A stretch of DNA of 11,546 nucleotides from Clostridiaceae bacterium (lineage in GTDB: Bacteria; Bacillota_A; Clostridia; Acetivibrionales; Acetivibrionaceae), in assembly GCA_012513545.1 (NCBI GenBank), contig JAAZCB010000241.1, positions 1 through 11,546 on the forward strand. The letters are read 5' to 3'. A program made the translations under genes and the position numbers. Shown here piece by piece: positions 1-11,546 of the stretch (positions within the stretch are counted from its first letter, which is position 1; the number at the start of each line of letters is the position of its first letter). A model generated the notes under the pieces. The model was given only the letters and a program-made list of their open reading frames with translations, was not told where the DNA came from and made no database searches.

Positions 1-491
1 ATGCCGGCGTAATATTCGATGTGTTGGGTGATGTTACGACAGTATATGCAGCTACCCTTGACAGCAGTGCAATGGTGAAGATAAGTGATGAAACGAATTT
101 TGCATCCATAACTCATGCAATTGCAAGAAATAATGCAAAGTACGGTTTTAAATATACGGTGTATGAATTGTATGATAAAACTACTGGTGCAGTAAAGTAT
201 GTTGGTAGGACTAGACAACCTCTTACGATGAGAAAAATGCAGCATTGGGCTACTGATTCTGCCAAAAAAGGATTGCAAATTCAAGTAGCGAGAATTGAAG
301 GGAAAGAATTAAAAGGTTTATTATACTCAGAAGCAAGGGGATTAGAGCAACTAGCTTATGAAAACTATACCAAAAACGGTATAAAATTGCTAAATAAAAT
401 AAGACCTTTGAGTAATAGTACGAAAAAAGCTGCGACTAAGGCAGCAAAATATCTTGATGATGCAGGGAAGTTTTTAAAGAAAATAATTTAG
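1..491 (+). CDS. C-terminal end of a probable polymorphic toxin with a GIY-YIG-like nuclease tip (5' truncated)
   Basis: The frame is open to the left edge (first whole codon at base 3), so the GTG at 21 is probably internal and this is the tail of a larger protein. The last ~110 residues resemble GIY-YIG nuclease tips of polymorphic toxins. A strand reading TVYELYD (156-176) corresponds to GIY, and YVGRT (198-212) supplies the YIG-like turn and the conserved arginine. Next come a histidine in MQHW (~237-248), EARGLEQ (330-350) with a likely metal-binding glutamate, and LLNKIRP (387-407) with the late conserved asparagine. The tail is lysine-rich. Toxin tips of this kind cut nucleic acid after delivery, with the N-terminal part handling export. 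A pair of immunity-like genes starts 12 bases after the stop, which supports the toxin reading. The delivery domain, and so the secretion route, is outside the window. The family call rests on motif order only. Confidence 0.65.
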   Translation, partial: AGVIFDVLGDVTTVYAATLDSSAMVKISDETNFASITHAIARNNAKYGFKYTVYELYDKTTGAVKYVGRTRQPLTMRKMQHWATDSAKKGLQIQVARIEGKELKGLLYSEARGLEQLAYENYTKNGIKLLNKIRPLSNSTKKAATKAAKYLDDAGKFLKKII

Positions 492-503
492 GAGTGATAT
501 TTA

Positions 504-974
504 GTGGCAAAAAGAATTCGTTATAAAATAGGTGATATATTTCTAGTTCCACTTGAAGATGATTTAAACGGAGTGGGTAGAATACTGAAAAAAGATCAGG
601 CTACTATTTTTATTGAATTGTATAAAATTAAACCTATAAAAGATGTTTCAGAATTTAACTTTGAAGAGGTAATAAGGGAAAAACCATTGGCTATGAGTTG
701 GTGCTATGATAGTTTGATAAAGAAGGGAGAGTGGATAATTATTGATAATAAGCCTATAGAAGAAGAGATTGAAATGCCTTTATTCTGGCATATAGACTCC
801 GGTGATATGAAATATTATATACGTAAAGGAATGCCTGATTGTTTTGAGACTTTTGGAGAGCGGGTTGAAATTTCAAAAGATGATATCGACAAATATGAAG
901 GTGAAGGAATTGGCGATGGATATTCTGAAAGAAATATTTATATCAAAAGGCTTAAGAAAGTAGGTTTACTATAA
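504..974 (+). CDS. Imm26-like immunity protein, copy 1
   Basis: This 156-aa soluble protein has no signal peptide or membrane segment. The N-terminus (residues 4-40: RIRYKIGDIFLVPL, then GVGRIL and IFIELY) has the pattern I associate with Imm26-type immunity proteins: a K/P-G-D-x-F-x-(I/V)-P-L opening followed by a glycine-flanked G-R strand. Conserved tryptophans occur in SWCYD, GEWII and LFWH. The start is GTG at 504 with GGAGTGA at 491-497, which abuts the stop of the toxin tail, so the two are probably co-transcribed. The expected role is cytoplasmic binding and neutralisation of the cognate toxin. The next gene is a paralogue of about 72% identity (hand count of ~43 differences in 156). 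The family name is from memory of its consensus and has not been searched. A non-immunity function is possible, but gene order favours immunity. Confidence 0.65.
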   Translation: MAKRIRYKIGDIFLVPLEDDLNGVGRILKKDQATIFIELYKIKPIKDVSEFNFEEVIREKPLAMSWCYDSLIKKGEWIIIDNKPIEEEIEMPLFWHIDSGDMKYYIRKGMPDCFETFGERVEISKDDIDKYEGEGIGDGYSERNIYIKRLKKVGLL

Positions 975-1023
975 TAATTATCTATAGTTTCAGGCGTGTA
1001 ATCGTCCAATGGAGTGATATATA

Positions 1024-1494
1024 ATGGCAAAAAGAATTCGTTATAAAATAGGTGATATATTTCTAGTTCCACTTGAAAATGATTTAAACGGAGTGGGTAG
1101 AGTATTAAAAAATGACCAAGCTACAATTTTTATTGAATTATATAAGATTAAACCCATAAGGGATGTCTCTGAATTTGACTTTGAAGAGGCTATAAAAAAT
1201 AAACCTTTAGTTATGAAGTGGTGCTATGACGATGGGGTAAGGAAAGGTGAATGGACGATTTTTGATAATAAACCTGTCGATGAAGAAATTGATATGCCGT
1301 ATTTTTGGAGTCAGGATTGTGGCAATTGGAAATATTTTATACGTAAAGGAACAAGTGATTCATTTGATACTGCTGGAGAACGGATTGAAATTTCAAAAGA
1401 GGACATCGACAAATATGAACCATATGGAATTGGAAATGAAATTTCAGAAAGAAACAGATACATGAGAAGACTAAAACAAGCAGGCTTATTATAA
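1024..1494 (+). CDS. Imm26-like immunity protein, copy 2 (tandem paralogue)
   Basis: This is the same length (156 aa) as the preceding gene and aligns with it without gaps. It shares the RIRYKIGDIFLVPL opening, the GVGR strand, the WCYD, GEW and FW motifs, RKG, the GER(V/I)EISK segment, and the GLL C-terminus. It starts with ATG where copy 1 has GTG, after the same GGAGTGATAT ribosome-binding segment (1011-1020). Codons 2-26 match copy 1 in 74 of 75 bases, and later codons differ often, also at silent positions. Most amino-acid differences fall around residues 56-73, 93-117 and 133-148, a plausible zone for partner specificity. Neither copy is broken, so both may be functional. Copy 2 may protect against a variant toxin from neighbours, or replace copy 1 when the toxin tip changes. 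That function is inference. Confidence 0.62.
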   Translation: MAKRIRYKIGDIFLVPLENDLNGVGRVLKNDQATIFIELYKIKPIRDVSEFDFEEAIKNKPLVMKWCYDDGVRKGEWTIFDNKPVDEEIDMPYFWSQDCGNWKYFIRKGTSDSFDTAGERIEISKEDIDKYEPYGIGNEISERNRYMRRLKQAGLL

Positions 1495-1514
1495 ATTATA
1501 AGGGGGATAATGTA

Positions 1515-1865
1515 ATGGGAACATGGGATACTGGTATTTTTGATGATGATCTGGCAATGGATATAAAAACTGAATTTGATGATGCTATTGAAGAGGGAAT
1601 GAGTGTTAAGAAAGCTACAAAGCAAATTCTTGAGTCCTTTGAAGATGAGCTTGAGGATGAGGACGAAGCTTCAATAATATATCTTACACTTGCAGCATTG
1701 CAGCTGGAAAAGGGAAGTGTTGAGAAAAATATAAAAAAGATGGCTCTGGAAATTATTGAATCCGGACAGGATTTGGAAAGATGGGAAGGGGCAGACGAAG
1801 AAGAGTTAAACAAAAGGAAAGTGGTTTTAAATGAATTGAAAGAAAAGTTATTGGAACAAAAATAG
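1515..1865 (+). CDS. DUF4259-like small acidic protein
   Basis: This 116-aa protein opens with MGTWDTGIFDDDLAMDI. That matches the M-G-(A/T)-W-x-x-G-x-F-x-(N/D)-D-x-A-x-D opening I associate with DUF4259, whose function is unknown. It is strongly acidic in the middle (FEDELEDEDEAS, residues ~36-47), and the remainder looks helical with an EELNKRK..LNELKEKL amphipathic end. It has no signal peptide or membrane segment. ATG at 1515 follows AGGGGGAT at 1501-1508, 20 bases after the second immunity-like gene, and a terminator lies just beyond the stop. It is therefore probably the last gene of the toxin/immunity transcript. Proteins with this opening also occur outside toxin loci, so a third immunity role is only a possibility. 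The family call is moderate and the function is unknown. Confidence 0.55.
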   Translation: MGTWDTGIFDDDLAMDIKTEFDDAIEEGMSVKKATKQILESFEDELEDEDEASIIYLTLAALQLEKGSVEKNIKKMALEIIESGQDLERWEGADEEELNKRKVVLNELKEKLLEQK

Positions 1866-1872
1866 CAGAATC

Positions 1873-1896
1873 AGCTGGAGAAATCCAGCTTTTTTT
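1873..1896 (+). terminator. Rho-independent terminator closing the toxin/immunity cassette
   Basis: A perfect 7-bp stem, AGCTGGA (1873-1879) paired with TCCAGCT (1884-1890), is closed by a GAAA tetraloop and followed directly by a T run (1890-1896). It starts 7 bases after the stop of the DUF4259-like gene. It separates the accessory cassette from the xylose operon. Confidence 0.85.
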
Positions 1897-1941
1897 GTGG
1901 TCAATCAAATACTAATATTACATTATAAACTATGGGCAATA

Positions 1942-1970
1942 TTTTCAAATTCTATTGAAAAAACTTTCAA
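1942..1970 (+). promoter_or_regulatory. Candidate operator: three TTTCAA/TTGAAA half-sites over the -35 box
   Basis: TTTTCAA (1942-1948) and TTGAAAA (1955-1961) form a 7-bp inverted repeat with a 6-base gap. The same TTGAAA also pairs with TTTCAA (1965-1970) across 4 bases. The half-site centres are 12 and 10 bp apart, roughly one helical turn each, so a dimer or a pair of dimers could bind one face. The site lies on the promoter of an operon that encodes its own ROK repressor, the natural candidate to bind it. It is not the TTAGTTTGTTT-type operator of Bacillus XylR. AT-rich DNA gives such short repeats by chance fairly often. Confidence 0.45.
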
Positions 1971-1983
1971 ATCGGAATATACT
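1955..1983 (+). promoter_or_regulatory. SigA-type promoter of the xyl operon
   Basis: The -35 box TTGAAA (1955-1960) and -10 box TATACT (1978-1983) have an ideal 17-base spacer. Transcription would start near 1990, about 40 bases before the xylB start, which leaves a short leader. The -35 box is itself the middle half-site of an inverted-repeat array, so repressor binding there would block RNA polymerase. The call is from sequence pattern only. Confidence 0.7.
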
Positions 1984-2028
1984 TAATAATGTGAGATTAC
2001 AAAGTTAATTTGAATAGGGGGGATAAGT

Positions 2029-3555
2029 TTGTCATTTTTGCTGGGTATTGATATCGGTACATCAGGTACTAAAACAGTACTGTTTGATGTAAACGGAAAT
2101 ACGGTTGCCAGTGCATTGGAAGAGTATCCTTTATACCAGCCCAACTTAGGATGGGCTGAACAGGACCCTGAAGACTGGTGGAGGGCCACATACACCACAA
2201 TTAAAGCTGTTATTTCCAAAAGCGGAATTCAGGCTTCTGACATTAAGGGTGTCGGCCTTTCCGGTCAAATGCATGGAGCTGTGCTTCTGGACAAAGATTA
2301 CAACGTACTTAGAAAGGCTATTATCTGGTGTGATCAGCGCAGTTTCCTGGAATGTGATCAGATTACTTCCATCATAGGCAGGGAAAGACTGATTGAGATT
2401 ACTGCAAATCCTGCGTTGACAGGGTTTACCGCTTCAAAAATACTTTGGGTAAAAAATAATGAACCACAAATTTTTGAAAAGGTAAATAAAATCCTTTTGC
2501 CTAAAGACTACATTAGATTCCGCTTAACCGGAGAATTTGCAACAGAGGTTTCCGATGCCAGCGGTATGCAGCTTATGGATATACCGGGCAGAAAGTGGAG
2601 CAGTGAGGTGCTGGGTAAGCTTGGTATTGAACAGAGCATGCTCGGTAAGCTTTACGAATCCCAGGAGATCAGCGGTAAAGTCAACAGGGCAGCTTCGGAG
2701 ATTACAGGTCTGAAAGAAGGAACTCCGGTTGCAGGCGGTGCAGGCGATCAGGCTGCTGGTGCTGTTGGAAACGGTATAGTTAAAACAGGTGTTGTATCAT
2801 CAACAATAGGAACATCTGGTGTTGTTTTTGCATTTTCTGAAAATGTCAGCATTGATCCAAAAGGAAGGGTTCATACCTTCTGTCACGCAGTTCCGAACAC
2901 CTGGCATATCATGGGAGTTACACAGGGTGCAGGCTTATCACTTAAATGGTTCCGTGACAATTTCTGCATAGAAGAAAAAAGGACAGCCGATCTTTTGAAG
3001 ATTGACCCATATGTGCTTATGGACCAGGAAGCGGAAAAAGTAACTGCCGGATGTAACGGGCTTATTTATTTGCCTTATTTGATGGGAGAGAGAACACCTC
3101 ACCTTGACCCTAACGCTAAAGGCGTATTCTTCGGATTGTCAGCCAAACATGAAAAACCCGACATGATAAGGTCTGTTATGGAAGGCGTAGTTTACAGCCT
3201 CAAGGACTGCCTTGAAATTATAAGAGAAATGGGCGTTGACGTATCAGAGGTAAGAGCATCGGGCGGCGGCGGAAAAAGCAAGCTGTGGAGACAGATGCAG
3301 GCTGATGTTTTCGGAAAGGAAATTACTACAATAAATTCCTCAGAAGGACCTGCTCTTGGTGTTGCTCTGCTTGCAGGAGTCGGAACAGGCGTTTATAGCA
3401 GTGTAAACCAGGCATGTGAAGCAGTTATAAAGGTAAAAACCAAACAGAGCGCTGATATGGAGATTAATTCAAAATATGAGAAGTTCTACGGTATTTACAA
3501 GCAGCTTTACAATTCACTTAAAAAAGATTTTACAGATCTTGCAGGAATACTATAA
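2029..3555 (+). CDS. xylB: Xylulokinase
   Basis: This enzyme phosphorylates D-xylulose to D-xylulose 5-phosphate with ATP in the cytoplasm, feeding the pentose phosphate pathway. The 508-aa length is typical of FGGY-family XylB. The N-terminal domain opens with the phosphate-binding loop GIDIGTSGTKT (residues 6-16). GLSGQMHG (~78-85) is the substrate-side signature. D240 in GAGDQAAGAVGNG is the catalytic base position. GTSGV and GERTPHLDPNAKG follow, and ASGGGGKSKLW is the C-terminal ATP-site signature. The start is TTG at 2029, chosen because AGGGGGG (2016-2022) is well spaced and because any later methionine would remove the phosphate loop. It is the first gene of the operon, 15 bases before the ROK regulator. 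The regulator and xylA nearby make xylulose the likely substrate rather than another FGGY sugar. Confidence 0.95.
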   Translation: MSFLLGIDIGTSGTKTVLFDVNGNTVASALEEYPLYQPNLGWAEQDPEDWWRATYTTIKAVISKSGIQASDIKGVGLSGQMHGAVLLDKDYNVLRKAIIWCDQRSFLECDQITSIIGRERLIEITANPALTGFTASKILWVKNNEPQIFEKVNKILLPKDYIRFRLTGEFATEVSDASGMQLMDIPGRKWSSEVLGKLGIEQSMLGKLYESQEISGKVNRAASEITGLKEGTPVAGGAGDQAAGAVGNGIVKTGVVSSTIGTSGVVFAFSENVSIDPKGRVHTFCHAVPNTWHIMGVTQGAGLSLKWFRDNFCIEEKRTADLLKIDPYVLMDQEAEKVTAGCNGLIYLPYLMGERTPHLDPNAKGVFFGLSAKHEKPDMIRSVMEGVVYSLKDCLEIIREMGVDVSEVRASGGGGKSKLWRQMQADVFGKEITTINSSEGPALGVALLAGVGTGVYSSVNQACEAVIKVKTKQSADMEINSKYEKFYGIYKQLYNSLKKDFTDLAGIL

Positions 3556-3570
3556 ATCTTCGGAGTTTTT

Positions 3571-4773
3571 ATGACAAAAAGCAGGGTTGGAAACAACAAA
3601 TACCTAAAAGTGTTCAATCAAACAGTAATACTCGATTTGATTAGGATACACAAGGAAATATCCAGAGCGGAGCTTTCCAAAATAACAGGTTTGTCGGCTA
3701 CTGCAATCGGTAGTATAGTATCGGAGTTGCTGGAAGCCGGATATATTACCGAGACTGGAATTGGCAAGTCGCAGGGCGGAAGAAGGCCGGTTTTACTGGA
3801 ACTTAAGCCTGAGTCTTTTTATTCCATTGGAGTAGACCTTGATATCGACTATATCAGGCTTGTGCTTATGGATATAACAAGCAGGGTTATAGACGAAAGA
3901 CTTGTTGATGTGCCAAGACCCGTATTGTTTGATGAGATTACAAAGGTAATTGCAGAAGAAATCGACAAAGTAATTGCATATAACAGGATAGAAAAGTCAA
4001 GACTACTTGGGATAGGGATTTCGATACCTGGTATGATTGACAGCAGGGTTGGCAAGGTAATTCTTGCTCCGAACCTCGAATGGGAGAACGTGGATATAAA
4101 AACACGCTTAACCACGCTGGCGGCCTTGCCTGTTTATGTTGAAAACGAGTCCATGGCATCAGCGATATGTGAGAACTGGATCGGCAACTGTCAGGAAATT
4201 AAAAACTTCGTTTGTATAAACATAATGTCCGGAATAGGCTCAGGTATATTCATTGACGGAAAACCATACCGTGGTGCAGGTGGAAGTACCGGAGAGGTTG
4301 GACATATAGTAGTGGATGACAGCGGAAAAAAATGCGGCTGCGGAAATTACGGATGTCTTGAAACCTACTCGTCAACTACGGGAATTGTTGAAAGAGCACA
4401 GCAGTTGGTTAAACAGGGCGTGGTTTCAAAGCTCAATGCTGTTGAAAATATTGAGGACATCAATATAAAGACAGTTATTGCCGCTGCAAAGGAAGGCGAC
4501 GAGGTAGCCAGGAACATACTGGTGGAATCCGCAAGATTTCTGGGATTGGCTATATCAAGTGTTGTAAATATCCTGAATCCTGAAAAAATAGTTTTGGGAA
4601 AAGAGTTTGTCAACTATGCCGATATTGCTATGCACCAGATAAAAGATATTGTTGAGTGCAAGGCATTAAAACAGCCTGCAAGTGACGTTGAAATAATTAA
4701 ATCAGATCTGGGGGAAAGGGCTTCAGTTTTAGGGGCTGCGATTATCCCGATAAAAGTACTATTTGGAAAATGA
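3571..4773 (+). CDS. xylR: ROK-family transcriptional repressor, probable xylose regulator
   Basis: This 400-aa protein has an N-terminal winged helix-turn-helix (residues ~15-75: [24 protein letters not shown].. then a GGRRP wing), followed by a ROK sugar-binding domain. The domain carries [11 protein letters not shown] (~147-157), a GEVGH motif (241-245), and cysteines C255, C257 and C262. With H245, these form the usual structural zinc site before CLE. Two kinase features are degraded: the usual DxGGT phosphate loop reads DLDID (89-93), and the catalytic ENDA-type motif reads VENES (190-194 region). It should therefore bind a sugar but not phosphorylate it, as in XylR/NagC regulators. ATG at 3571 follows CGGAG (3561-3565). 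Lying between xylB and xylA, it would be autoregulated and respond to xylose. The symbol rests on context; the inducer is not proven. Confidence 0.82.
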
Positions 4774-4804
4774 TAATAATATTAATTTAAGGAGGCATTT
4801 TATT

Positions 4805-6124
4805 ATGTCAGAATATTTTAAGAACGTATCAAAAATCAAATATGAAGGTAAAGATTCAGACAACCCGTTAGCGTTTAAGTATTACAATGCTGACGAAGTT
4901 GTAGGCGGCAAGACCATGAAGGAGCATTTGCGTTTCGCAGTTGCATACTGGCATACATTCCAAGGAGGAGGCGCAGATCCGTTTGGAGCAGGCACTGCTC
5001 AAAGACCGTGGGATAACTTAAGCGACCCAATGGATATTGCAAGAGCAAAAGTTGCTGCAAACTTCGAATTCTGTGAAAAGCTCGGAGTACCTTTCTTCTG
5101 TTTCCATGACAGGGATATAGCTCCTGAAGCTTCAACACTTGCAGAAACAAACAAGAGACTTGATGAAATTGTTGCTCTTATAAAAGAAAACATGAAAAGC
5201 AGCAGTGTTAAACTTCTCTGGGGTACAACAAATGCTTTCGGCAATCCAAGGTTTGTACACGGTGCATCCACTTCACCAAACGCTGACGTATTTGCATACG
5301 CTGCAGCCCAGGTTAAGAAAGCCATGGAAATCACAATGGAGCTCGGCGGACAGAACTATGTATTCTGGGGCGGCAGAGAAGGTTACGAGACACTTCTCAA
5401 CACAGACATGAAGCTTGAGCTTGACAATATGGGAAGATTCCTTAGAATGGCTGTAGAATATGCAAAAGAAATAGGCTTTACAGGCCAGTTCCTGATTGAA
5501 CCAAAGCCGAAGGAACCTACAAAGCACCAGTATGACTTTGATACTGCAACTGTAATAGGTTTCTTAAGAACTTATGGTCTTGAAAAGGATTTCAAGATGA
5601 ATATCGAAGCAAACCATGCTACACTTGCAGCTCATACCTTCCAGCATGAACTCCAGGTTTCAAGAATCAACGGAGTTTTGGGAAGCATTGATGCAAACCA
5701 GGGTGATTTACTGCTTGGATGGGATACTGACCAATTCCCGACTAACATTTACGATACAACTCTTGCTATGTATGAAGTACTTAAAGCCGGCGGCTTTACC
5801 AAAGGCGGCCTGAACTTCGACTCCAAGGTAAGAAGAGGTTCCTTTGAAGCAGTTGATCTTTTCCATGCTCACATTGCAGGTATGGATTCCTTTGCAAAAG
5901 GCTTAAAAGCTGCATATAAAATGATACAGGATGGAAAGATTGACAAATTTATCGAAGAAAGATACCAGAGCTACAAGAGCGGCATTGGCGCTGACATCGT
6001 AAGTGGCAAGGTTGGTTTTAAAGAACTTGAAAAATATGCACTTTCAAATGATCAGGTTAAAAATACTTCAGGAAGGCAAGAATATCTTGAAACTTTGCTT
6101 AACAAGTATATAATTGAAGGATAA
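4805..6124 (+). CDS. xylA: Xylose isomerase (class II)
   Basis: This enzyme interconverts D-xylose and D-xylulose (and D-glucose and fructose, less well) with two divalent metal ions, as a cytoplasmic tetramer. From the ATG at 4805 the protein is 439 aa, the class II length, and every active-site residue sits at its canonical class II number. These are H101 and D104 in FHDRD, E232 and K234 in IEPKPKEP, E268 and H271 in NIEANH, D296 in SIDAN, D307 and D309 in GWDTD, and D339 in LNFDS. A longer reading from TTG at 4763 would overlap the regulator's end; the ATG is preferred because GGAGG at 4791-4795 is ideally placed. It lies 31 bases after the ROK gene, and galM follows 8 bases later. I see no defect in it. 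Confidence 0.97.
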
Positions 6125-6132
6125 TTAAGATT

Positions 6133-7194
6133 ATGTGTATTTTAGAAGAGAAATTTGGTAATTTTGAAGGTGTAGGTAGTGTAAATATCTATACCCTTAC
6201 AAATGCAAACGGCATGAAAGCGAAAATTACCAATTATGGGGGAGTAGTAGTATCACTTTATGTGCCAGATAAAAATGGAAAACTGGAGGATGTTGTTTTA
6301 GGTTATGACAATCTCCAGGACTATTTGAAGGATATATTCTTTTTTGGAGCCATAATTGGGAGGTATGCCAACAGAATTGAAGATTCAAGTTTTGAGCTTA
6401 ACGGCTCTAGTTATGCTCTGTTTGCAACTGAAGGGAAACATCATCTGCATGGAGGGATAAAAGGATTTGATAAGGTAGTATGGGAGGCTGACGTCGTAAA
6501 GAAAGATAACCTTCAGTGTCTTCAGCTTTCATATCTGAGTGTGGATGGAGAAGAAAACTACCCTGGAAATCTTGATGTAAAGGTTATATACTCCATAACA
6601 GATGATAATTCCCTCAAAATCGACTACTATGCAGTATCTGACAAGGATACCGTGGTGAACCTGACAAATCATTCTTATTTTAACTTGTCAGGTCACGAAT
6701 GCGGTGACATATTGAAGCATGAACTCAAGCTTAACTGCAACAGTTTTACTCCTATAGACGGGGACTGCATACCGACAGGTGAAATCAGGAGTGTTAAGGG
6801 GACGCCATTGGATTTTACAACAATGAGACCTATTGGTGAAGGTATTTCGGCGAATGATCAACAAATCCTTTATGGAAAGGGTTTTGACCATAACCTTGTA
6901 ATCAGTATGGAAGACAAGGACCTGAAAAAGGCTGCTGAAGTATTTGATCCTTCGAGCGGAAGGGTTATGGAGGTTTATACAACTAAACCCGGTATTCAGT
7001 TTTATTCAGGCAACAACATTTTGGCCGGTACCTCCGGCAAGAATGGTGCCGGATATAATAAGAGATCCGGATTCTGCCTTGAAACTCAATACTTTCCAAA
7101 CTCTTTAAAGCACAGAAATTTCCCATCACCTGTAATTAAGGCAGGACAGGAATACAGGCATACAACCATTTACAAGTTTTCAGCAAAAAGCTGA
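6133..7194 (+). CDS. galM: Aldose 1-epimerase (mutarotase)
   Basis: This enzyme interconverts the alpha and beta anomers of aldoses, so the anomer favoured by the isomerase is not limiting. The 353-aa length is normal for GalM. The landmarks appear in order: NYGGVVVSLYVPD (34-46), GRYANRI (76-82) with the conserved R/N/R, HLHGG with H106, NLTNHSYFNLSG with catalytic acid H180, GFDHNLVI with D252, and FCLETQYFPNS with catalytic base E317. ATG at 6133 follows the xylA stop by 8 bases. Its only Shine-Dalgarno, AAGGA (6117-6121), lies in the last xylA codons, which suggests translational coupling. It is the last gene before the operon terminator. The nominal galactose specificity of the symbol is unproven; context points to xylose or glucose. 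Confidence 0.92.
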   Translation: MCILEEKFGNFEGVGSVNIYTLTNANGMKAKITNYGGVVVSLYVPDKNGKLEDVVLGYDNLQDYLKDIFFFGAIIGRYANRIEDSSFELNGSSYALFATEGKHHLHGGIKGFDKVVWEADVVKKDNLQCLQLSYLSVDGEENYPGNLDVKVIYSITDDNSLKIDYYAVSDKDTVVNLTNHSYFNLSGHECGDILKHELKLNCNSFTPIDGDCIPTGEIRSVKGTPLDFTTMRPIGEGISANDQQILYGKGFDHNLVISMEDKDLKKAAEVFDPSSGRVMEVYTTKPGIQFYSGNNILAGTSGKNGAGYNKRSGFCLETQYFPNSLKHRNFPSPVIKAGQEYRHTTIYKFSAKS

Positions 7195-7276
7195 TACATC
7201 GGCTAATTGAAGCATTACTTGTTATGAGGCACTAAAAGATAAATGAGAGTAATATAATAGAAATGTAAACAGTCTT

Positions 7277-7315
7277 AAACCGGTTATAAGGGGTCAAACC
7301 CGTATAACCGGTTTT
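7277..7315 (+). terminator. Long hairpin terminator ending the xyl operon
   Basis: AAACCGGTTATA (7277-7288) pairs perfectly with TATAACCGGTTT (7303-7314). A further inner stem GGGT (7291-7294)/ACCC (7298-7301) lies around a CAA loop, with a small asymmetric bulge between the stems. The T run is short (7312-7315), so termination may be incomplete. The A run on the 5' side also allows it to act on the opposite strand. Confidence 0.7.
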
Positions 7316-7376
7316 GCATTATGCTTACATATTTTTCATCGCATTTATCACATCCGCCAATTTGCAGGATTGAGTA

Positions 7377-7405
7377 TTGACTCTTGCAAAAAATAGTGTT
7401 ACCAT
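7377..7405 (+). promoter_or_regulatory. Candidate lysA promoter with overlapping inverted repeat
   Basis: TTGACT (7377-7382) and TACCAT (7400-7405) are separated by 17 bases. The -35 box is near consensus and the -10 matches four of six positions. The -35 lies inside an imperfect inverted repeat: TTTGCA (7361-7366) with TGCAAA (7385-7390), and inside it GAGT (7372-7375) with ACTC (7380-7383). That may be an operator. Start mapping would settle it. Confidence 0.45.
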
Positions 7406-7406
7406 A

Positions 7407-7445
7407 AAATAAATATATTTCTAGCGTAAATAAATATATTTATTT
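7407..7445 (+). repeat. Two AT-rich repeats, 21 bp apart, in the lysA leader
   Basis: The 14-base unit AAATAAATATATTT occurs at 7407-7420 and again at 7428-7441, exactly 21 bp (two helical turns) apart. The second copy extends to a perfect 18-bp palindrome, AAATAAATATATTTATTT (7428-7445). The first has only the 10-bp palindromic core AAATATATTT. Phasing and symmetry would suit paired dimer binding, but in such AT-rich DNA slippage or chance is a live alternative. Confidence 0.6.
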
Positions 7446-7519
7446 CTCAGGAATACTTCAATTGAAGAACTTATGTAATGATTTTGAAATTATTTATTTT
7501 TATATGGAAGGTGGAAGGT

Positions 7520-8833
7520 ATGTTTGTATCAAAATCACTATCAATAAATAAAAACGGTCATTTGGAAATCGGAGGCTGTGATTGTGTTGAGCTGGAAAAA
7601 AATTACGGAACACCGATTTATGTGATGGATGAAGGTCTTATAAGAGAAAATTGCCGTATATATAAAAATTCTATGGACAAGTACTATAATGGCAGAGGTC
7701 TTGTGTTATATGCAAGTAAGGCTTTCTGCACCATGGCTGTCTGCAGGATAGCTCACCAGGAAGGACTCGGACTTGATGTTGTATCGGGAGGAGAGCTTTA
7801 TACTGCAATAAAAGCAGGCTTTCCAATGGACAAGGTCTACTTCCATGGAAATAACAAGACATATGATGAGCTTGAATTTGCCATTGATAACAATATCAGA
7901 AGGATTGTAGTGGATAACAGGGAAGAGCTTTACAGGGTAAGTGAAATAGCTTCAAAAAAAGGTAAGACTGCAAGTATTTCATTCAGAATCAAACCTGGAA
8001 TTGATGCGCATACTCATGATTTTATAATGACAGGGCAGGTAGATTCCAAGTTCGGGGTTACTCTTTCAAATAATGAGGCTCTCGATATTATCACTGAGGC
8101 TTCAAAGCTTTCCGGCATAAGGGTTGAAGGCCTGCACTGCCATATAGGCTCACAGATATTTGATCTGGCACCCTTTGAAATGGCTGCTAAGGTTATGCTT
8201 GAGTTTATTGCAGAAGTAAAAGAAAAAGCCGGCATTGAAATTGAGGAGCTTAACCTTGGCGGGGGTTTCGGAATAAAATACACGCCTGACGATGATCCTA
8301 TTGAGTATGATCACTATATTGAATCGGTTTCAAAGGTAGTAAGAAAAGTATGTGAGGACAAAAAATTAAAGCTTCCCTTTATTGTTATGGAGCCCGGAAG
8401 ATCAATAGTGGCTTCGGCAGGAATTACTTTGTATAAAATCGGCGCAGTCAAGGACATTAAAGATGTAAGGAAATATGTTTCAGTTGATGGCGGAATGACG
8501 GATAATCCAAGGTATGCACTGTATAACGCAACATATGACGCAGTACTTGCAAACAGACCTGATGCACCTAAGACTGAAAAGATTACTATTGCAGGAAAGT
8601 GTTGTGAGTCGGGTGATCTTCTGGCTAAGGATATAATTATGCCCGAAATAAAGTCAGGGGATATTCTGGCTGTGTTAGCCACAGGTGCATATAATTACTC
8701 AATGTCAAGTAATTACAACAGGATTCCAAGACCGCCCGTAGTGTTGGTAAAGGACGGCAAATCACGCATAATTGTCAAAAGAGAAGACTATGATGATATT
8801 ATAAGAAATGATGTGCTGCCCGAAGATCTTTAA
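7520..8833 (+). CDS. lysA: Diaminopimelate decarboxylase
   Basis: This enzyme makes L-lysine from meso-diaminopimelate with pyridoxal phosphate, the last step of lysine synthesis. From ATG at 7520 it is 437 aa. K67 in YASKAF forms the Schiff base. GLHCHIGSQ (204-212), the glycine loop LNLGGGFG (245-251) and EPGRS (291-295) bind the cofactor phosphate, and C362-ESGD (362-366) is the conserved motif contributed from the second subunit. An upstream ATG at 7478 is in frame, but the intervening residues are hydrophobic and unlike the family. 7520 has AAGGTGG (7508-7514) in front and gives the normal N-terminus. The gene stands alone after the xyl terminator, with its own candidate promoter, and cca starts 76 bases downstream. 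Confidence 0.95.
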   Translation: MFVSKSLSINKNGHLEIGGCDCVELEKNYGTPIYVMDEGLIRENCRIYKNSMDKYYNGRGLVLYASKAFCTMAVCRIAHQEGLGLDVVSGGELYTAIKAGFPMDKVYFHGNNKTYDELEFAIDNNIRRIVVDNREELYRVSEIASKKGKTASISFRIKPGIDAHTHDFIMTGQVDSKFGVTLSNNEALDIITEASKLSGIRVEGLHCHIGSQIFDLAPFEMAAKVMLEFIAEVKEKAGIEIEELNLGGGFGIKYTPDDDPIEYDHYIESVSKVVRKVCEDKKLKLPFIVMEPGRSIVASAGITLYKIGAVKDIKDVRKYVSVDGGMTDNPRYALYNATYDAVLANRPDAPKTEKITIAGKCCESGDLLAKDIIMPEIKSGDILAVLATGAYNYSMSSNYNRIPRPPVVLVKDGKSRIIVKREDYDDIIRNDVLPEDL

Positions 8834-8909
8834 GTGTTGATGAAGTAAAATACAGTCTGCCTCTGTTGTCTTAAGAAGGGTTTTGCTTTTACAGCAGGAG
8901 GAAATCAGT

Positions 8910-10187
8910 ATGAAATTTGAATTGCTGCCTGATAAGGTTGCAAGGGTATTGTCCGATGCAGGGAGAATTGCAGATGAAATTGGATATAACATATATGTTG
9001 TAGGCGGGTTTGTCAGGGATCTTATTATAGGAGTAGAAAATCTGGACATTGACCTTGTTGTGGAAGGTGATGGGATATGCTTTGCAAAAAAGTTCTCAGA
9101 AAAATACTCAGCAAAGCTTGAAACCTATGAAAGGTTCCGGACAGCCCTTGTTACAATGGAAAATGGTTTATCCATTGATATTGTTACTGCAAGGAAGGAA
9201 AAATACCCTCATCCGGCTGCTCTCCCTGAGGTTAGCGAGGGAACAGTACGGGATGACCTTTTTAGAAGAGATTTTACAATCAACAGCATAGCAATAAAAC
9301 TTAACAGTAATGATTGGGGTAAGGTTATTGATTTTTTTGAAGGAGAAAAAGACTTGTCGAAGGGGATTATCAGGATTCTTCACGACTTGAGTTTTATTGA
9401 TGACCCCACCAGGATTATTAGGGCTGTAAGGTTTGAGGCCAGGTATGGTTTTCATATGGAGGAGAAGACTGAGAGTCTGGCGGTTAAGGCTATTGAATCA
9501 GGAATTTTCGATGCGCTTAGCAGGGAACGTATCGGTTTTGAGTTCGATATTCTTCTGAGGGAAAAGAATTTTGCAGAAATACTTAAGCGTATGCTCAATC
9601 TGGGCATCCTTGAAAAGATTTACCCTGAAATCGATTTAACTGATGTATTGATGGATATTCTTGCAAGTCTTGATAAAAAAATTTCACTTCTTCAAAAAAA
9701 CTTGAAGTTCAATGAAAATATTGATAAAATCCTTTTATATATTCTTATTCTTCATTACAATATGAATAGTGAAAAAGCCTGTAGTTCTGCTTCGAGGATG
9801 AGACTGAACAAGAGCTTTAAGCATGAGATACTAAGCTTCATAAACATACGTGATAATTCGCTCCCAATGCTGATAGGTAAGGGAAGTGTGAGTAATTATG
9901 ATATTTATATAGCTTTTAAGGAAATTTCAACAGAGGTATTGGTTGCTTTATATTTGATAGAGGACAATCATATATTTCATGAAAGGATACTGAAGTATAT
10001 AAACTGTTTACGAAGCATAAAGCCGTGTATTACGGGAAAGGATTTATTGAAGGCTGGTGTTAAGCCTGGACCTGAGTTTAAGGAAATACTGCAAAGTATT
10101 TTAATACAGAAGGTTAACGGCACTATTAATACTATTGAAGAAGAATTGGATTATGTAAAAAAAACCAGGATAAGCAGCGAATCATAA
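8910..10187 (+). CDS. cca: Class II tRNA nucleotidyltransferase / poly(A) polymerase family protein
   Basis: Enzymes of this family build or repair the CCA 3' end of tRNA in the cytoplasm. From ATG at 8910, with AGGAGG at 8896-8901, the protein is 425 aa. A TTG at 8883 would add nine residues but would place the ribosome binding site inside the gene. The head domain has VGGFVRD (31-37), catalytic D46 and D48 in LDIDLVVEG, the RRDFTINSIAI motif (119-129), and DDPTRIIRAVRFEARYGF (164-181), where the nucleotide-selecting EDxxR reads DDPTR with D165 and R168 kept. The C-terminal half is helical and poorly conserved, as expected. No HD phosphohydrolase motif is visible. The sequence alone does not say whether it adds CCA, only CC, only A, or poly(A), so the symbol is provisional. 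Confidence 0.85.
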   Translation: MKFELLPDKVARVLSDAGRIADEIGYNIYVVGGFVRDLIIGVENLDIDLVVEGDGICFAKKFSEKYSAKLETYERFRTALVTMENGLSIDIVTARKEKYPHPAALPEVSEGTVRDDLFRRDFTINSIAIKLNSNDWGKVIDFFEGEKDLSKGIIRILHDLSFIDDPTRIIRAVRFEARYGFHMEEKTESLAVKAIESGIFDALSRERIGFEFDILLREKNFAEILKRMLNLGILEKIYPEIDLTDVLMDILASLDKKISLLQKNLKFNENIDKILLYILILHYNMNSEKACSSASRMRLNKSFKHEILSFINIRDNSLPMLIGKGSVSNYDIYIAFKEISTEVLVALYLIEDNHIFHERILKYINCLRSIKPCITGKDLLKAGVKPGPEFKEILQSILIQKVNGTINTIEEELDYVKKTRISSES

Positions 10188-10195
10188 CCGGTTTT
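10161..10195 (+). terminator. Weak candidate terminator at the end of cca
   Basis: AAAACC-A-GG (10161-10169) can pair with CCGGTTTT (10188-10195) with one bulged A. The hairpin spans the cca stop codon and has a large loop (~18 bases). The T run is only four bases, so the call is weak. The remaining intergenic DNA to 10295 shows no convincing promoter. Confidence 0.25.
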
Positions 10196-10295
10196 AAATA
10201 CTGATATTTAATATTTTAAAGTGTAAAATCACAAAAACGCTACACGACTAAGAATCGGAAATGAACTCTTACCTGGGTTTATAAGGAGTAATAAA

Positions 10296-10991
10296 ATGCT
10301 TGTTGATAACTTGAAAAATCCTATAATTATTGTATATTTGTTTTTGGTTTTTTCTTTTTCGATATCTTTTCACGAGATGTCTCATGCACTTTCGGCATAC
10401 CTCCTTGGTGATTCTACTGCCAAGGACAAAGGAAGACTTACGCTTGACCCGCTTAAGCATCTTGATCCATTTGGTACTATAATGATATTGTTTTTTTCAT
10501 TTGGATGGGCGAAACCTGTTCCGGTTAACATAAGTAATCTAAAATACAAAAAGCTGGGTATGGTGCTTGTGAGTCTTGCAGGTCCGGTTTCCAACATGTT
10601 GCTGGCATTTTTGTTTATGATTCCTTTAACCTATTACGGTTTCAGATATGATTTTGATCCTAAATTAATGATTAATAGACTGGGTTTGTTTGAATCTACT
10701 GATATTAATACTGTAATTATCAACTTATGCGTTTTAGGTGTCAGTATGAATACTGTCCTTGCAGTCTTCAACTTTATTCCTTTCCCTCCGCTGGATGGCT
10801 CGAAGATATTCTCGGGATTATTGCCTGCAAGGATATATTTTAAACTTATGAATTATCATCAGATCTTTTATGCAATTCTCATAATTCTTATGATAACAGG
10901 TGCTTTCGGTTTTATACTTTGGCCTGCAGTACATTTTATGGTTGGTGTGCTTGATTTTGCAGTAAAACCTCTTGTGGCACCGTTTGTGTAA
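10296..10991 (+). CDS. Site-2 protease family (M50-type) membrane metalloprotease
   Basis: This 231-aa polytopic membrane protein has zinc-ligand motif HEMSH (H26, E27, H30) in the first membrane segment. The third ligand motif lies in FNFIPFPPLDGSK, with D167 in the second half. Hydrophobic stretches at about residues 9-25, 60-70, 88-112, 138-160 and 185-210 suggest four to six membrane spans. It belongs to the short, PDZ-free family found in many Clostridia and thermophiles. The active site would lie in the membrane, and substrates are unknown. In other bacteria, related enzymes cut membrane anti-sigma factors or signal remnants. ATG at 10296 follows AAGGAG (10283-10288). Neither neighbour (cca or trpS) gives a functional clue. 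Family call firm, role open. Confidence 0.88.
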   Translation: MLVDNLKNPIIIVYLFLVFSFSISFHEMSHALSAYLLGDSTAKDKGRLTLDPLKHLDPFGTIMILFFSFGWAKPVPVNISNLKYKKLGMVLVSLAGPVSNMLLAFLFMIPLTYYGFRYDFDPKLMINRLGLFESTDINTVIINLCVLGVSMNTVLAVFNFIPFPPLDGSKIFSGLLPARIYFKLMNYHQIFYAILIILMITGAFGFILWPAVHFMVGVLDFAVKPLVAPFV

Positions 10992-11042
10992 TCATATTGA
11001 TAAAATTCCTTAAACCAGTTGCTTAATTTTCTTAAATTGAGT

Positions 11043-11071
11043 TAGACTTTATATGAAAAAAAAGATATAAT
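11043..11071 (+). promoter_or_regulatory. Candidate SigA-type promoter for trpS
   Basis: A perfect TATAAT (11066-11071) lies 17 bases after TAGACT (11043-11048), which matches TTGACA at four of six positions. An A run precedes the -10. Transcription would start near 11078, leaving a leader of about 75 bases before the GTG start. I saw no T-box core or terminator/antiterminator pair in that leader. Confidence 0.6.
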
Positions 11072-11153
11072 TTATAAATATGATTTTAATGGATAATTAT
11101 TATTAGAATTAGAGTTTTACCTATTTATAGTAAACAGGAGAGTGAGTTTTTAA

Positions 11154-11546
11154 GTGAATAAAGGGACAATCTTAAGTGGCATGAGGCCAACAGGTGCATT
11201 ACATCTGGGTAACTATTTCGGTGCTCTGGAAAACTGGGTTAAGCTTCAGAATGAATATAAGTGTTATTTTTTTATTGCAGATTGGCATGCCCTTACTACT
11301 GGATATGAGGATACCTCTGAGTTAAAAAACAATGTATCGGATTTAATTATAGACTGGCTAAGCGCAGGACTTGATCCTGAAAAGTGTACATTTTTTCTTC
11401 AGTCAAGCATTTTAGAGCACGCAGAGCTGCATTTACTGTTCTCTATGACGACACCCTTATCCTGGCTGTATCGTTGTCCCACATATAAGGACCAGTTAAG
11501 CCAGCTTAAGGATAAAAATATAACAACCTATGGTTTTTTAGGATAC
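11154..11546 (+). CDS. trpS: Tryptophanyl-tRNA synthetase (3' truncated by window)
   Basis: This is a class I aminoacyl-tRNA synthetase that charges tRNA-Trp. The first 131 residues are visible. LSGMRPTGALHLGNYFGAL (7-25) holds the HIGH-type ATP motif as HLGN (17-20). FFIADWHALTT and MTTPLSWLYRCPTYKDQ match the tryptophan-site region of TrpRS, and the open frame runs off the right edge. The start must be GTG at 11154, because TAA lies directly before it in frame and the next methionine (codon 10) would cut into the GMRPTG motif. The best Shine-Dalgarno, AGGAG (11136-11140), is 13 bases away, longer than usual. The KMSKS loop is beyond the window. It has its own candidate promoter. Confidence 0.95.
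   Translation, partial: MNKGTILSGMRPTGALHLGNYFGALENWVKLQNEYKCYFFIADWHALTTGYEDTSELKNNVSDLIIDWLSAGLDPEKCTFFLQSSILEHAELHLLFSMTTPLSWLYRCPTYKDQLSQLKDKNITTYGFLGY

Follow-up and report, generated by a model that had tools for sequence, protein, structure and literature searches.

A GIY-YIG-type tip, duplicated Imm26 genes and a DUF4259 gene at the probable end of an RHS toxin locus in a Clostridiaceae bacterium

The window analysed here is the whole stretch of 11,546 nucleotides given by contig JAAZCB010000241.1 (assembly GCA_012513545.1, Clostridiaceae bacterium, positions 1 to 11,546 of the forward strand). Its left end carries a small module, in which the C-terminal tip of a probable polymorphic toxin is followed by two genes of the immunity family Imm26, a gene of the DUF4259 family and a terminator:

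3-491, + strand: tip-bearing frame from the list of open reading frames, open at the left edge, TAG stop; C-terminal 162 amino acids of a larger protein
504-974, + strand: Imm26-family gene copy 1, 156 amino acids, GTG start (PF15428, 49.0 bits); likely the cognate immunity gene
1024-1494, + strand: Imm26-family gene copy 2, 156 amino acids, ATG start (PF15428, 49.8 bits)
1515-1865, + strand: DUF4259 gene, 116 amino acids, acidic, predicted all-helical (PF14078, 32.7 bits); possibly an additional immunity-type protein
1873-1900, + strand: intrinsic terminator (hairpin 1873-1890) with a 7-bp stem, GAAA loop and T run, closing the module

Imm26 copy 1 begins 12 nucleotides past the stop codon of the tip frame. 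Both 156-amino-acid proteins exceeded the curated Pfam cut-off for Imm26 (23.3 bits) and the 116-amino-acid protein that for DUF4259 (22.8 bits). Three terminator-like sites were found within positions 1-2200 on both strands (shuffle mean 0.7), the hairpin at 1873 being the only one on the + strand. We thus recovered the layout given in a preliminary description made from the sequence alone, which had named two gap-free Imm26-like paralogues, an acidic DUF4259-like protein and a terminator after a left-open frame with GIY-YIG-like motifs.

That frame comprises a pre-tip end (residues 1 to about 45), a GIY-YIG/URI-type tip (about 49-135) and a C-terminal helix, and it holds the motifs TVYELYD, YVGRT, ARGLEQ and LLNK. 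Catalytic-type residues occur in the order Y54, Y66, R77, E115 and N131, positions which we take to be the catalytic ones, in part after UvrC mutants. In an alignment of nine tips, both tyrosines and the glutamate were present in all nine, the arginine in eight and the asparagine in seven, and most of the named motifs were kept; this alignment was made without P0009, which is contained in the tip of the relative G002 used in its place, and without the broken tip pieces of locus L001. The homologues P0006, P0007 and P0008 shared 54, 53, and 49% identity with the window tip, and since the motifs were kept in four relatives on other contigs, they are not due to chance.

The window tip scored only 15.6 bits (E 0.02) against the Pfam GIY-YIG family (PF01541), under the cut-off of 22.6, so that the motif reading needed further support, and the tips of several other relatives gave no GIY-YIG call at E 0.1. 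The homologous G096 C47 tip did pass the cut-off (25.5 bits), and the window tip and the G096 tips retrieved each other in profile searches. The predicted fold has a mixed beta-alpha core whose best structural alignment is with GIY-YIG nucleases; Foldseek with the tip model gave zero matches at E 0.001 or better, and sequence searches against solved structures with the tip, Imm26 and DUF4259 found no credible relative. Motifs, predicted fold and homologues together support a GIY-YIG/URI-type nuclease, as had been proposed at the outset. The profile searches suggested at that time bore out Imm26 and DUF4259 over their cut-offs, whereas the tip itself fell below its own.

The architecture of the relatives points to the kind of protein to which the tip belongs. 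In genome G203, the tip terminates an open frame of 2766 amino acids in which Pfam places a subtilase, DUF6531 and 33 stretches of RHS repeats, and an Imm26 gene comes next. The sequence YAGVIFDVLGD occurs ahead of the G203 tip, and the window frame begins with all but the first of these residues, AGVIFDVLGD. The homologous tip of G280 closes a protein in which Pfam recognises RHS repeats and PT-HINT, and in G002, truncated at the contig edge, an RHS-core motif lies ahead of the tip in a frame without any Pfam family. By homology, judging from the RHS architecture of these relatives and the pre-tip match, the window frame most likely closes an RHS protein whose delivery part would lie beyond the left edge. 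The relatives inspected upstream showed RHS, and no search aimed at LXG/WXG delivery was made. The combination of subtilase and RHS in G203 would fit an exported protein. The preliminary description had stated that it would fail if the upstream part proved to be a non-secreted enzyme, or if the tail and the 156-amino-acid proteins fell outside nuclease and immunity families; as far as this could be checked, none of these outcomes was found, G203 having subtilase and RHS and the 156-amino-acid proteins falling in an immunity family. GIY-YIG domains occur in repair enzymes too, and the frame could on that ground be an ordinary housekeeping protein with unrelated neighbours; with relatives that are C-terminal tips of RHS proteins adjoined by Imm26, this is strongly disfavoured and hardly credible.

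The linkage between the tip and Imm26 was examined in 391 genomes of the class Clostridia, to which G002 (Clostridium sp. CX1) belongs. A first genome-contig scan with a single Imm26 protein gave no match. The tip alignment matched three genomes and Imm26 eight; all three were among the eight, with the tip adjoining Imm26, one of the three being G002, in effect a row of the query alignment (P0009). The eight genomes held ten Imm26 genes over the cut-off, from 11 rows, two of which were halves of the frame-split G369 gene. Seven of the ten lay directly after a GIY-YIG tip or its remnant (G002, G203, G096 C47, G096 C20, G280, G366 and G369), and three had neither directly upstream (G114, G246 C62 and G246 C31). 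The tips of G280 and G366 were recognised first by eye and then became members of the tip profiles, and the G369 remnant, which lay outside the profile membership, scored 49.9 and 43.6 bits. The same order was present at two more loci, the window and L001. The order tip, Imm26 and sometimes DUF4259 is recurrent.

The window therefore very probably opens with the 3' part of an RHS polymorphic-toxin gene and its immunity operon, made of a GIY-YIG tip, a likely cognate Imm26, a duplicate Imm26 and DUF4259 as a possible extra immunity-type protein; the relatives, too, point to a Clostridia bacterium as the probable source. The tip would be a metal-dependent GIY-YIG (URI) nuclease that, once freed from the RHS shell, would cleave the DNA or RNA of a neighbouring cell. 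The Imm26 protein encoded right after it would bind and block it in producing cells and their kin, and the tandem duplicate of Imm26 would cover a variant tip or add dosage. DUF4259 would be one more small protein of immunity type, placed second in a cassette that combines two immunity families. The module might instead be a decaying orphan, an RHS cassette that has been displaced, lacks a delivery part of its own and keeps its immunity genes only against kin still carrying the toxin. Decay is indeed seen at related loci: a broken tip lies in L001 between an RHS-like frame and an RHS-like fragment (both by eye), a degenerate tip is fused to Imm26 in G096 C20, and only the C-terminal half of the tip is left in G369 and G337. 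We consider this unlikely for the window, where the tip is intact over its visible part with the catalytic-type residues kept, and where the first residues match the pre-tip region of the full-length G203 protein.

The two Imm26 copies of the window align without gaps, with 72% amino-acid and 79% nucleotide identity. Among codons for the same amino acid, 24/24 were identical within the first 26 positions (504-581 and 1024-1101) and 56/88 afterwards, so that all 32 synonymous codon differences lie beyond codon 26. This boundary was picked after inspection, and the run-length permutation value was 0.0028. Such a pattern suggests that the copies have recently exchanged sequence locally, at their 5' ends. 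Loci with repeated immunity genes of a single family have been described in general, Imm26 not being a prominent example in the parts of that survey drawn on here (Zhang et al., 2012, PMC3482391).

Some Imm26 loci showed other arrangements. At L001 (1945-2387) the tip is interrupted by stops and a frame change, whereas the Imm26 and DUF4259 frames are open. At L031 (492-1442) a decayed GIY-YIG tip shares one frame with an Imm26 domain and adjoins another tip copy and a DUF4259 gene. At L028 (6455-8623) Imm26 lies inside a frame of 723 amino acids, with no other Pfam domain at E 0.1.

DUF4259 was the next gene family after Imm26 at four loci, the window, L001 and two G096 loci. In G337, the remnant of a GIY-YIG tip is directly upstream of a long DUF4259 gene, with no Imm26 between them. 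The model of the window protein is all-helical, with a mean predicted local distance difference test (pLDDT) value of 84.8; a structure search with it gave, among the matches listed, generic helical and designed proteins only, which excludes no family. The DUF4259 subfamily profile matched 11 of the 391 genomes. RHS-like frames were near 5 of 14 DUF4259 loci and none of 20 control windows, a rough test because of unequal sizes (loci of 5-19.5 kb; controls of 17 kb, placed by hand at round positions across nine of these genomes) and of a profile built from relatives of the window protein. At one locus besides these five, G096 C20, a tip lies upstream at a contig edge. No RHS-like frame was seen nearby in 6 of the 11 genomes, and three of the four plasmid matches of DUF4259 had no annotated RHS gene nearby, one match having a RelE/ParE toxin gene in its vicinity.

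The sizes of the contigs listed for the relatives from the protein searches were also compared, with 44 of the 46 listed Imm26 relatives, the window's own P0003 and P0043 being excluded. A longest contig of exactly equal size was listed for 6/30 DUF4259 relatives and 6/44 Imm26 relatives against a jitter mean of 0.2, and a contig of 3579 for P0006, a relative of the tip, as well as for P0018, a relative of DUF4259, an equal size being in neither case proof of the same contig. A separate alignment comprised 30 sequences, 28 of them drawn from a list of 46. The N-terminal residues of the DUF4259 relative P0038 resemble a stretch of Imm26 by eye.

Long forms of DUF4259 were considered as possible Imm26 fusions. 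The C-terminal domain of these long forms starts with a GD motif, as Imm26 does, but profile-profile comparison gave probabilities of 6 (145 columns) and 24 (24 columns), so that we left this idea as unsupported. Long DUF4259 genes also occur in mixed surroundings. At L057 (7763-9661), three genes in a row come after an RHS gene: first a DUF2691 gene (PF10903, 130.7 bits), then a DUF4259 gene of the long form, then another gene that looks DUF2691-like by eye. DUF2691 might be an immunity family that has no name as yet. At L024 (4082-9731), a mixed array holds Imm26, an AHH-tipped RHS protein, Imm11, a DUF4259 protein of the long form, a second gene weakly resembling Imm11 (E 0.011) and a fragment of RHS type.

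The evidence for a kinship between DUF4259 and the immunity family Imm3 was weak and mixed. A G224 protein found via the DUF4259 profile (genome-wide E 8e-6) scored 18.2 bits against Imm3, under the cut-off of 25, and is encoded directly after a protein that combines RHS repeats and PT-HINT with a BURPS668_1122 deaminase, the toxin class paired with Imm3, itself described as all-helical (PMC3482391, in part). Weak Imm3 matches were seen in 6/31 DUF4259 subfamily members (best E 0.0022), and one DUF4259 relative bears both Pfam labels in the database. Matches of such size are not special, since the same scan of 31 relatives gave HAAS in 11 (best E 0.0028) and Borrelia_REV in 2 (best E 0.00029). 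The window protein had no match to Imm3 (PF14425) at E 1 or better. The DUF4259 profile missed the one Imm3 protein over the cut-off in G332, the G224 and G332 proteins did not find each other, and an Imm3 search of the 391 genomes matched three (G050, G329 and G332), which do not overlap with those matched by DUF4259. Plain membership of DUF4259 in Imm3 was rejected on the missing match, the lack of crossing between profiles and the disjoint genomes; a distant kinship, judged from these sequence comparisons, is possible.

We tentatively propose that DUF4259 is an immunity superfamily without a name so far, which might be a remote offshoot of Imm3. In Clostridia RHS arrays its short form would recur in second place in an Imm26-DUF4259 cassette that goes with GIY-YIG tips, where it would either be another inhibitor of that nuclease or protect from a related tip. 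DUF4259 could also be a helper of the Imm26/toxin pair, such as a chaperone or regulator, or a passenger, which is conceivable although somewhat doubtful. As expected for a helper or passenger, none of the four Imm26-bearing cassettes has DUF4259 immediately behind the tip, many DUF4259 proteins carry an additional domain and are encoded away from RHS loci, the weak Imm3 matches of the subfamily did not surpass those to an unrelated helical family, and the open-licence literature searched, as far as its texts were available, states no function for it. An immunity role is favoured by the excess of RHS-like genes near DUF4259 loci over control windows, by the G337 gene that directly follows a tip remnant without Imm26, and by the G224 protein in the immunity position directly after a deaminase toxin. 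In that literature, DUF4259 appeared in a single paper, as a gene in a lanthipeptide cluster with no role given, and it was not found together with polyimmunity or Imm3.

The GC content was 31-36% across the four module frames and 42-44% in the next three genes, a contrast consistent with horizontal acquisition of the module. The gene after the module encodes a xylulokinase (2029-3555, TIGR01312) and is the first of a xylose-type group at 2029-7194 with a ROK-family regulator, a xylose-isomerase-like protein and an aldose epimerase. The four module proteins had no match in PADLOC and weak matches only in PHROGs (best E 0.012). In NCBIfam, the tip and Imm26 copy 1 had no match, and Imm26 copy 2 and DUF4259 had weak, unrelated ones. 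The viral contigs scanned with the tip, Imm26 and DUF4259 held no relatives, and the plasmid scan with the tip gave no match.

The preliminary description had suggested that the pairing of such a tip with Imm26-like and DUF4259-like genes might be poorly described. This holds for DUF4259, barely described in the open-licence literature searched, but not for the tip and Imm26, whose pairing is already known: the accessible text of PMC3482391 lists Imm26 with Tox-URI1, the pairing being marked for Bacteroidetes and gamma-proteobacteria and Firmicutes being listed unmarked. There, URI toxins, except in intracellular bacteria, are typically linked to RHS repeats. The window resembles these toxins by its URI (GIY-YIG) tip, by Imm26 directly downstream and by RHS delivery in its relatives, and differs by its two Imm26 copies and its DUF4259 gene, a family not found in the part of that paper's main text consulted.

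TipC of Yersinia pseudotuberculosis, with an annotated Imm26 domain, binds and neutralises the DNase TepC, according to the parts of PMC10833071 used here. As in the window, the Imm26-annotated protein is encoded directly after the nuclease toxin, whereas TepC is a Type VI effector without a recognised nuclease domain, comes from a Gram-negative bacterium and is not described there as an RHS tip. The Imm3/BURPS668_1122 deaminase pairs (PMC3482391, in part; PF14425 and PF14424) likewise involve a small all-helical immunity protein, as DUF4259 is, which some DUF4259 relatives match weakly; unlike these pairs, the window DUF4259 has no Imm3 match and its tip is of nuclease, not deaminase, type. 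RHS GIY-YIG effectors are also listed in Salmonella in the sections of PMC11669294 consulted, where the PAAR-RhsA-GIY-YIG effectors of SPI-6 share the RHS and GIY-YIG tip combination but differ by Type VI delivery and a Gram-negative host. The arrangement of the window is ordinary except for DUF4259, which as a further immunity-type protein may be its modestly interesting part. The tip/Imm26 pair adds a further example of a catalogued combination, of which the relatives offer a Gram-positive RHS case with full-length architecture, and the useful part is a lead on DUF4259, a Pfam family of unknown function, through its recurrence beside Imm26 and GIY-YIG tips.
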